DNA from: a virus
Reading direction: 5' to 3' (one strand)
Virus record (IMG/VR): IMGVR_UViG_3300003937_000012
Coordinates: 1 to 33,290 of that record
DNA length: 33,290 nucleotides
Position 1 is the stretch's first letter; each line of letters begins with the position of its first letter. The notes under the pieces are model-generated. The model did not search any database. It worked only from the letters and a program-made list of their open reading frames with translations, and was not told the origin of the DNA. Positions 2,164 through 16,068 of this stretch are shown here, piece by piece. The translations under genes and the position numbers were made by a program.

Positions 2164-2754
2164 ATGCTTGTAATTGGGAACGGAGAGAGTAGAAAAGATA
2201 TTGACATCAACAAATGTGGTGGCATAAAGGTTGGTTGTAACGCAATTTTCAGAGACTTTTATGTAAATCATTTAATTTGTTGTGATCGCCGTATGGTTGA
2301 AGAAGCACAAAAGGAACGAAACTATGGTGCTATCTATACTAGACCTGATTGGAGGGATCAATTTAAATTATGTGGGCTAGTTCCACAACTTCCTTATAAG
2401 GGTGATACAAAACTTGATGATCCATGGCATTGGGGTAGTGGGCCTTATGCAGTATTATTAGGAGCATCAATAACTACTAACTTTAGTGGTGATCTGAATA
2501 TATCGTTGCTTGGATTTGATTTAGAAGCAGACAGTAACACCGTTAATAATATATACAAAGGAACAGAAAATTACAACGATGCAGATTCGAGCCCAGTAGA
2601 TCCTAGTTATTGGATTTACCAAATTGATAAAGTATTTGAAAATTTTCCGCAAATTAATTTTATCTATTATAATAATAAGCCGTGGCCAACAGAACACAAG
2701 AATGTATGTAATAAAATGTTAATTGAATTTGAGATAGACAATGAGACCACCTGA
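2164..2754 (+). CDS. Putative Rossmann-like glycan enzyme (GNG-S motif; DUF115/GT42-like)
   Basis: About 196 aa. The N-terminus is a beta strand followed by a GNGES loop (MLVIGNGESRKDI), then VGCNAIFRDF and a hydrophobic strand ending CCDRRM. The second half has GSGPYAVLLGASI and ISLLGFDLEAD, then a Tyr/Asn-rich loop. This order resembles the DUF115/MAF and GT42 sialyltransferase-like folds, in which a GNG-S loop binds the nucleotide sugar; I recognise the architecture only, so substrate and activity are open. An in-frame stop at 2152-2154 leaves TTG 2158 or ATG 2164 as start; I chose ATG because neither has a visible Shine-Dalgarno site and the ATG begins directly at the first strand. The 3' end overlaps the following oxygenase gene by 14 nt, so the two are probably translationally coupled. 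A role in modifying host or phage surface glycans is inferred from the nearby glycosyltransferase at 4615. Confidence 0.6.
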   Translation: MLVIGNGESRKDIDINKCGGIKVGCNAIFRDFYVNHLICCDRRMVEEAQKERNYGAIYTRPDWRDQFKLCGLVPQLPYKGDTKLDDPWHWGSGPYAVLLGASITTNFSGDLNISLLGFDLEADSNTVNNIYKGTENYNDADSSPVDPSYWIYQIDKVFENFPQINFIYYNNKPWPTEHKNVCNKMLIEFEIDNETT

Positions 2755-4064: not shown

Positions 4065-4093
4065 TTGACAAGTAATACAAAAGACTATATAAT
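4065..4093 (+). promoter_or_regulatory. Sigma70-type promoter, TTGACA-N17-TATAAT
   Basis: TTGACA at 4065-4070 and TATAAT at 4088-4093 with exactly 17 nt between them: a perfect consensus host-type promoter. The predicted start of transcription is near 4100. It should drive the QueD-like gene and probably the glycosyltransferase early in infection. Confidence 0.88.
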
Positions 4094-4101
4094 ACAAACA
4101 T

Positions 4102-4152
4102 GAGGACTTAAAAAATCGTCGACCCTCTTTAAATACTCCGCCGATTAATTAA
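4102..4152 (+). promoter_or_regulatory. Structured mRNA leader / possible pseudoknot before the QueD-like gene
   Basis: The leader starts close to the predicted transcript 5' end. GAGG (4102-4105) can pair with CCTC (4124-4127). TTAAAAAATCG (4108-4118) can pair with CGATTAATTAA (4142-4152) in 9 of 11 positions, with two A-A mismatches in the middle. The two helices interleave, giving an H-type pseudoknot, and the second ends just before the GGAG site at 4155-4158. This geometry is like that of small translational riboswitches such as preQ1-I, and the gene downstream is a pterin/7-deazaguanine-type enzyme. It does not match the preQ1-I consensus closely, so ligand binding is speculation. Confidence 0.45.
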
Positions 4153-4163
4153 AAGGAGAAAAA

Positions 4164-4610
4164 ATGAAGTACAAAAGTACAAAAACATACGGTAACGAAA
4201 GAGGATTAAGTTGTACCTTCCGCCAAGCAAAAGCAACTCACAGCCATTGTTCATTATTACATGGATATAGTTTAGGATTTCGATTCGAATTCGAAGCTAT
4301 TGAACTTGATGATAAAAATTGGGTTTATGACTTTGGCAATTGTAAATGGATCAAACAATATTTAGAAGATAACTTTGATCATAAATTTGCAGTTGACAAA
4401 AATGATCCTAATGTGGAAGACTTTATGGCATTAGATAAAAAAGGACTTGCAAAAGTAGTTTTAATGGACGGTGTTGGTTGTGAGAAGTTTGCTGAACATG
4501 TCTTTAAGTATGTAGCACCATTAGTTGAAGAAGATACAGGTGGTCGTGTAAGACTTTCACTTGTTGAAGTCTTTGAACACGGTAGTAATAGTGCGATAGT
4601 GGAAAATTAG
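4164..4610 (+). CDS. QueD-like 6-carboxy/6-pyruvoyl-tetrahydropterin synthase family protein
   Basis: 148 aa, normal length for the family. QueD makes 6-carboxy-tetrahydropterin from dihydroneopterin triphosphate on the route to preQ0 and queuosine; PTPS relatives make pyruvoyl-tetrahydropterin. Matches: FRQAKATHSHCSLLHGY (H26, H28, C29, H33), a VYDFG strand, NFDHKFA (D72, H73) in the place of the family LDH motif, VGCEKFAEHVF in the place of PTxExLA, and a VEVFEHGSNSA C-terminus with E138. The usual HGH zinc pair reads HGY here; a subgroup of bacterial homologues has SHC...HGY, so this may be normal for the subgroup. GGAG precedes the start. The gene has its own promoter and structured leader. 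A role in 7-deazaguanine metabolism (tRNA or phage DNA) is inferred; no queC/queE/queF or transglycosylase is in the window. Confidence 0.8.
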   Translation: MKYKSTKTYGNERGLSCTFRQAKATHSHCSLLHGYSLGFRFEFEAIELDDKNWVYDFGNCKWIKQYLEDNFDHKFAVDKNDPNVEDFMALDKKGLAKVVLMDGVGCEKFAEHVFKYVAPLVEEDTGGRVRLSLVEVFEHGSNSAIVEN

Positions 4611-4614
4611 ATAC

Positions 4615-5316
4615 GTGGCCAATTACGTTGTATGCCTTAAACATGGCGACAAATATAGTGCAGAATATGTTAATGTTTTACATAACATGCTCTCTCGAAA
4701 TTTAACTATTCCTTTTAATTTTGCTTGTTTTACAGAAAACGGTGCAGGCATAAAACCCGGTATAGAAATTCATCCACTACCTGCAATTCCAAATATTAGT
4801 GGTTGGTGGTATAAACCAATGTTTTTCAATCCAGGACTGGCTATAAAAGGAACAATTCTTTACATAGACTTAGATGTTATTATTTTTGATAATATCGATA
4901 AGTTGTTTACATATAAACCCGGCGAATTTTGTGTTATACGAGATTTTAATAGATGCGTCCAATCTAATTGGGATAGAATGAATTCAAGTATTATTCGATT
5001 TAATACAGGACAGCATAAGCAAGTATATGAACGTTTTATGGAAGATCCAAAATATCATGCGGCAAGATATCATGGAGATCAAGATTGGCTATATGCTAAT
5101 GTAAAAACAGATTTTAACTTTTGGCCTGACGAATGGATCCAAAGTTATAAATGGGAGATGCGGGGTAAACCTGAAATGTCTAGAATAACTGGAAAACGGA
5201 ATTTTGCTACACCGGGCGAACCCAAAATACTGCCCGAAACAAGTATTGCAGTATTTCATGGTGATCCAAATCCAAAAGATTCAATAGATCCTTGGTGTAA
5301 AGAAAATTGGTATTAA
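4615..5316 (+). CDS. Putative glycosyltransferase, GT8/GT-A type with DLD motif
   Basis: 233 aa. Starts with GTG four bases after the stop of the QueD-like gene, with only a weak GGA upstream. A GT-A-type fold is suggested by the early strand ANYVVCLKHG, the metal-binding DLD motif in ILYIDLDVIIFDN (D85, D87), a central SSIIRFNTG segment, the GDQDWLY motif that in GT8-like enzymes follows the acceptor site, and a C-terminal FHGDPNPKD with a His likely to help bind the metal or diphosphate. Such enzymes transfer a sugar from a nucleotide donor; the acceptor here is unknown (host glycan, phage DNA base or virion protein). It is probably cotranscribed with the QueD-like gene. Confidence 0.72.
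   Translation: MANYVVCLKHGDKYSAEYVNVLHNMLSRNLTIPFNFACFTENGAGIKPGIEIHPLPAIPNISGWWYKPMFFNPGLAIKGTILYIDLDVIIFDNIDKLFTYKPGEFCVIRDFNRCVQSNWDRMNSSIIRFNTGQHKQVYERFMEDPKYHAARYHGDQDWLYANVKTDFNFWPDEWIQSYKWEMRGKPEMSRITGKRNFATPGEPKILPETSIAVFHGDPNPKDSIDPWCKENWY

Positions 5317-8283: not shown

Positions 8284-16067
<7,784 letters not shown>

Positions 16068-16068
<1 letters not shown>

Follow-up and report, generated by a model that had tools for sequence, protein, structure and literature searches.

An RNA leader at the 5′ end of viral queD mRNA is a phage cis-regulatory element and likely represents an undescribed riboswitch class that controls queD translation. The window considered here is an entire viral record of 33,290 bases (IMG/VR IMGVR_UViG_3300003937_000012) that encodes T4-like tail fibre, baseplate, and clamp-loader genes. 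Within it, the leader (4102 to 4146) is an H-type pseudoknot located between a promoter and a QueD-like gene (window coordinates):

4065 to 4070, + strand: −35 hexamer TTGACA, read from the sequence
4088 to 4093, + strand: −10 hexamer TATAAT, after a 17-nt spacer, giving a perfect sigma70 promoter with an expected transcript start near 4100
4102 to 4105, + strand: P1 5′ strand GAGG, partner of 4124 to 4127, covarying among homologues
4106 to 4113, + strand: L1, with conserved N-C-U (4106 to 4108) and a variable remainder
4114 to 4118, + strand: P2 5′ strand AAUCG, partner of 4142 to 4146, supported by covariation
4119 to 4121, + strand: U-C-R, with U4119 opposite C4141 (mismatch) and the pairs C4120-G4140 and G4121-C4139
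4123, + strand: C just 5′ of P1′, read from the sequence
4124 to 4127, + strand: P1 3′ strand (P1′) CCUC, covarying with the P1 5′ strand
4128 to 4138, + strand: L3, U-NN-AAAUA-Y-UC, an A-rich crossing loop that holds the CUC of the anti-Shine-Dalgarno
4136 to 4139, + strand: anti-Shine-Dalgarno CUCC, paired with GGAG 4155 to 4158 in the nested MFE structure, which excludes the G4121-C4139 pair
4139 to 4141, + strand: Y-G-C, with C4139 and G4140 partnering G4121 and C4120, and C4141 mismatched
4142 to 4146, + strand: P2 3′ strand (P2′) CGAUU, supported by covariation
4155 to 4158, + strand: Shine-Dalgarno (SD) GGAG, read from the sequence
4164 to 4610, + strand: queD-like gene, 148 amino acids (phrog_2389, E = 6e-39; PF01242 PTPS, E = 6e-16)

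A preliminary description of this stretch had listed the perfect sigma70 promoter, the GAGG/CCTC complementarity, the SD, and the QueD-like gene, and all of these lie where it placed them; the queD ATG is at 4164. It had also drawn a 9-of-11 helix between 4108 to 4118 and 4142 to 4152. That complementarity exists, but only the inner five pairs (4114 to 4118 with 4142 to 4146) are conserved; the outer pairs are not kept in homologues and were dropped. P2 extends the opposite way, across the U4119·C4141 mismatch to C4120-G4140 and G4121-C4139. The layout of the family is P1 (4 bp), L1, P2 5′ strand (5 nt), U-C-R, N, C, P1′, U-NN-AAAHA-Y-UC, Y-G-C, and P2′ (5 nt).

Homologous leaders were collected by protein and DNA searches. 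The same core precedes every homologous QueD gene that is at least 73% identical and has upstream DNA (L002 to L013 and L015 to L017; protein search). A DNA pattern scan of IMG/VR returned at least 120 loci; two further scans used alternative P1 sequences, and another used alternative L3 sequences (at least 120 loci). After removal of chance matches (L184 and five TGTT/AGCA coding matches), the pooled scans comprise more than 350 viral loci, a few contigs being counted twice. Promoter-like sigma70 pairs (at least 10/12, within 60 nt 5′ of P1) were detected for 119 of 196 distinct leaders, compared to 4 of 196 in a reversed control. The −10 hexamer most often ends 7 to 10 nt ahead of P1, which usually puts the RNA at the 5′ end of the message. 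In a large subgroup (L389 to L508, the MTYYSTKTYG group), the RNA lies a few bases 3′ of an upstream gene with no obvious promoter of its own and therefore can also act within an operon.

Both helices vary across these loci. P1 occurs as GAGG/CCUC, GUGG/CCAC, GUCG/CGAC, and GCGG/CCGC; it is complementary in all 191 distinct queD-preceding cores chosen without any P1 requirement, and its closing pair is G-C in 137 of 137 distinct leaders. More than 60 strand combinations were found for P2 (e.g., GGCAU/AUGCC, GACAA/UUGUC, GACUU/AAGUC, and GGUGU/ACACU, with AAUCG/CGAUU in the window). Across 79 diverse rows, 90.1% of P2 cells are paired (62.6% when shuffled), 162 cells are altered on both sides (49.9 when shuffled), and every slid register shows far lower pairing than the true one. 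Pairing at the five P2 positions is 89% in the 137 distinct leaders, versus 54% for shuffled rows. Beyond the constant U·C mismatch, P2 extends through C-G and then an R-Y pair, which is A-U or G-C in 96 of 96 distinct cores, and in all 120 loci listed, with both positions free; in the 137-leader set, scans with the pair fixed contributed half of the R-Y counts. A 110-row QueD tree implies at least 26 changes of P1 type and at least 14 of R-Y, with nine and eight phylogenetically independent supported pairs, respectively, all of them compensated. Homologous leaders lacking compensatory changes, which the preliminary description named as evidence against a pseudoknot, are not what this set contains: both helices change by compensation. 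Because P1 and the inner five P2 pairs are preserved in this way, the structure stands well above chance.

The unpaired positions are conserved as well. N-C-U follows the P1 5′ strand in 93 of 93 distinct leaders from a scan that left those positions free. AAATA (or AAAHA), TC, GC, and the C before P1′ were fixed in the scan patterns, so their invariance is imposed except at protein-found loci; a scan with relaxed L3 detected AAACA and AAAAA variants. Taken together, comparison of the homologues shows an H-type knot, as judged from sequence, with conserved unpaired N-C-U, the mismatch, the C before P1′, and AAAHA.

Three expression platforms recur downstream, and in each the strand that sequesters the SD or the AUG overlaps P2. 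In the first, P2′ continues into GUCAU-C...G-AUG or CAUUG...CAAUG, with the base after CAU covarying with the base before AUG (C-G in 70, U-A in 11, other in 3); in its GUCAUC...GAUG form, the overlap with P2 can be as small as one base pair. In the second, P2′ ACACU continues into ACUCC, the complement of the SD GGAGU. In the third, represented by the window, CUCC at the end of L3 complements GGAG and uses the Y of R-Y. Given this overlap in all three, pseudoknot formation would turn translation on. In the absence of ligand, the SD or AUG would be held by the P2-overlapping strand (in the window, CUCC 4136 to 4139 with GGAG 4155 to 4158); a ligand-stabilized pseudoknot would remove that strand and expose the ribosome site. 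The features by which a riboswitch is recognized, a conserved and structured leader ahead of a metabolic gene and a mutually exclusive expression platform, are both found here, with weak energy support. In nested folding without the knot, the mean unpaired probability is 0.45 for the SD and 0.26 for the AUG, rising to 0.79 and 0.46, respectively, with P2′ occupied. Compared with shuffled linkers, the AUG is less accessible (0.27 versus 0.37) and the SD slightly more so (0.47 versus 0.38). These folding models give weak to modest backing for sequestration of the ribosome site, and the result for the SD renders the ON sign uncertain. We lean toward ON, by a narrow preference.

An OFF switch is a possible but not a favored outcome: with ligand bound, P2 would stack against the adjacent start-codon hairpin or leave too little room at the ribosome site, and translation would be blocked. 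Every known preQ1 class represses (PMC11625349), and in the GUCAUC/GAUG platform P2′ directly adjoins the start-codon helix and could stack on it. However, the sequestering strands of ACUCC/GGAGU and of CUCC/GGAG (window) share at least 3 nt with P2′ or use the Y of R-Y, which makes the knot and sequestration mutually exclusive. Two other candidates for control were ruled out. P1′ (CCUC) does not serve as the anti-SD, because GUGG/CCAC leaders retain GGAG or GGAGG SDs. A leader peptide starting at GUG or AUG in P2′ was rejected because AAGUC, ACACU, and CGUU leaders offer no start codon and the distance to queD does not keep the frame.

In keeping with the linked pterin/deazaguanine gene pointed out in the preliminary description, the downstream gene is queD/PTPS in every case with a readable open reading frame (ORF). 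In the first set, all 260 readable downstream ORFs among the matches listed are QueD/PTPS homologues (phmmer against the window protein); in the second, a QueD homologue follows in 117 of the 120 matches listed, and in the remaining three the ORF, with the same leader start, ends at the contig edge. Two QueD subfamilies are represented, a window-like HGY type and canonical HGH enzymes. Catalytic Cys29, Asp72, His73, and Glu138 are invariant in the QueD family, and in the window-like HGY type Gln21 and Tyr35 replace the zinc-binding histidines of canonical QueD/PTPS (FRQ...HC...HGY versus H...C...HGH), residue equivalences that we take from E. coli QueD. The metal site of the HGY type may have been rebuilt or lost. 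Canonical HGH-type proteins are 21 to 31% identical to the window protein. In L213 and L425, the RNA lies upstream of a second canonical subfamily (STGHRV..KC.HLHGHN); at least two QueD lineages that look unrelated have thus acquired it.

Distribution of the RNA appears, from these scans, to be confined to phages. The GAGG form was absent from 84,980 bacterial and archaeal species scanned, and the GUGG form matched once, in L386, a 5.5-kb contig of a metagenome-assembled genome (MAG). This contig is binned as a Bacteroidetes MAG and carries the RNA (2509 to 2552, minus strand) with a phage-type queD. Its QueD start agrees with phage versions, and it is probably a binned phage contig. In 27 large contigs (up to 518 kb), the leader occurs in one copy apiece (26 by pattern, the last by model), with no matches to a reversed-pattern control; neither second copies nor other regulated genes were detected in these 27 genomes. 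Among cultured phages, three leader queries run against 50,697 phage records retrieved no true match, and a model search of six cultured-phage relatives did not find the RNA. In the cultured phages with the nearest QueD, queD lies mostly inside or near que genes, without the RNA.

These patterns also bear on a protein-based alternative, an autogenous translational operator, with the pseudoknot as the binding site through which the QueD-like protein, or some other phage protein, would control its own mRNA. The model for such control is T4 gene 32, whose mRNA carries a pseudoknot bound by its own product, gp32; like the leader, it is a pseudoknot at the 5′ end of a T4-like phage mRNA that acts on translation. 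T4-like viruses are a group with known pseudoknot operators, T4-like capsid genes were detected in 9 of 28 records, and the presence of one element per genome, always preceding the same gene family, is what an operator would predict. In contrast to the gene 32 operator, the leader serves an enzyme gene and is spread across divergent QueD proteins. The same core and unpaired bases precede both the HGY type and the distant HGH type, so QueD proteins that have diverged widely would all need to have kept one binding surface. Moreover, phages with closely similar QueD in que operons lack the RNA. We therefore consider an operator rather unlikely.

The size and pseudoknot layout of the leader had been likened to preQ1 riboswitches in the preliminary description, with no clear match to a known class and with a new class or a protein-bound leader as options; Rfam bears out the lack of a match. 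Scanned across the whole window, no Rfam family reached its gathering score, and the preQ1 models also stayed below theirs in 20 homologues. Permissive scans confined to short stretches of the leader gave no preQ1-I (RF00522) match up to E = 10, and preQ1-III and tetrahydrofolate (THF) riboswitches gave no covariance match. The best subthreshold match in the window was preQ1-II (RF01054; 15.6 bits, E = 7.1, against a gathering score of 47), and it rests on the SD and AUG. preQ1-II shares a translational leader, a pseudoknot, and a conserved SD, but it has an HLout fold with four helices and is nearly twice as large.

The resemblance to preQ1-I goes further. In preQ1-I, an H-type knot, G-C closes P1, L3 is A-rich, and the P1 5′ strand is followed by a U that reads N9 (PMC11625349, PMC10639078); UC or AC precedes the P1 3′ strand, and the C reads the ligand (PMC11625349). 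The phage leader has the same order (P1-L1-P2-L2-P1′-L3-P2′), supported by covariation of both helices, with a short G-C-closed P1, an A-rich third loop, and a linked deazaguanine gene, and several preQ1-I members likewise act on translation (PMC11625349, PMC10639078). A C before CCNC is present, preceded by A, C, or U; it was fixed in the scan patterns but also occurs in the protein-found L002 to L017. By analogy, C4123 would be the equivalent of the ligand-reading C of preQ1-I (PMC11625349). These shared features (topology, closing pair, C before P1′, loop, and gene) could mark a diverged preQ1-I member rather than a new class, which we regard as improbable given the Rfam results and the following differences. 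L1 of the phage RNA starts with N-C-U (A, U, or C, then invariant C-U) instead of U; L2 is only 1 to 2 nt; P2 comprises 5 bp, the U·C mismatch, and two extra pairs, versus ~4 bp in preQ1-I; and P2′ lacks the SD. The leader is also apparently phage-only, predicted to be ON, and without a covariance-model match. By sequence comparison, then, it would work like preQ1-I yet fails membership in that class. A constitutive 5′ structure (an mRNA stabilizer or ribosome standby site) or a DNA-level protein site, without sensing, fits the position of the RNA at the extreme 5′ end of most transcripts but is very improbable, since compensatory pairs would be needless for a DNA site, as would linkage exclusive to one enzyme family and conserved unpaired bases for a stabilizer.

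To return to the riboswitch interpretation, the ligand pocket would be made up of the conserved unpaired bases and would take up a guanine-like molecule from the FolE-QueD-QueE route, with a 7-deazaguanine (e.g., CDG, ADG, or preQ0) or a pterin as candidate ligands. FolE is encoded in 16 of 27 large contigs and a QueE-like protein in 15 of 23; both genes are sited away from leader-queD in the same genomes. The folE neighbors in two examined genomes include a phosphoribosyltransferase, and Synechococcus phage BUCT-ZZ01 encodes QueE, guanine phosphoribosyltransferase, QueD, and FolE together. For QueC, leader-bearing genomes yielded only weak QueC-like PP-loop matches, and a search of these genomes for TGT/DpdA found no TGT. 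Together, folE, the queE-like gene, the phosphoribosyltransferase, weak or absent queC, and no TGT suggest that DNA is modified by way of a deazaguanine nucleotide and not by base exchange. In phage 9g, FolE, QueD, and QueE are functional: they complement E. coli and act in DNA modification (PMC6884629). Phage que clusters (folE, queD, queE, and queC) comprise the same enzyme set but carry queD inside an operon without this leader, and that report makes no mention of riboswitches (PMC6884629). Given the pathway genes and the phage 9g precedent, a guanine-like intermediate is the natural guess for the ligand. A bolder version, possible rather than likely, is a phage-only riboswitch that senses an intermediate read by no known riboswitch (e.g., CDG, ADG, CPH4, or a deazaguanine nucleotide) and switches queD ON.

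Riboswitch classes restricted to viruses are few, if there are any, and in the open-licence literature we found no description of such an RNA. The leader is tied to phage guanine-modification genes, which shield DNA from restriction. If it is a riboswitch, its aptamer would be a small and well-constrained orphan, known from hundreds of natural variants and joined to three natural expression platforms, and would add a second evolutionary solution, near preQ1-I in size, for reading a guanine-like molecule. Its ligand would reveal a metabolite that phages monitor while remodeling host nucleotide metabolism. Under the phage-only ON version, the virus would make modified guanine for DNA only with the supply line running.

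Several features of gene neighborhoods were also recorded. In L510 (3844 to 7114), L511 (3897 to 7203), and L379, folE adjoins the queE-like gene, with a phosphoribosyltransferase gene nearby. In the window, three paralogous 2OG-Fe(II) oxygenases (PF13759; 2741 to 3388, 3375 to 4064, and 6015 to 6626) flank queD, and a glycosyltransferase-like gene (4615 to 5316) lies directly 3′ of it. Further downstream, an IscA/Fe-S assembly-like protein (PF01521; 7957 to 8283) is encoded directly ahead of a tail fibre gene of 2593 amino acids (8287 to 16068).
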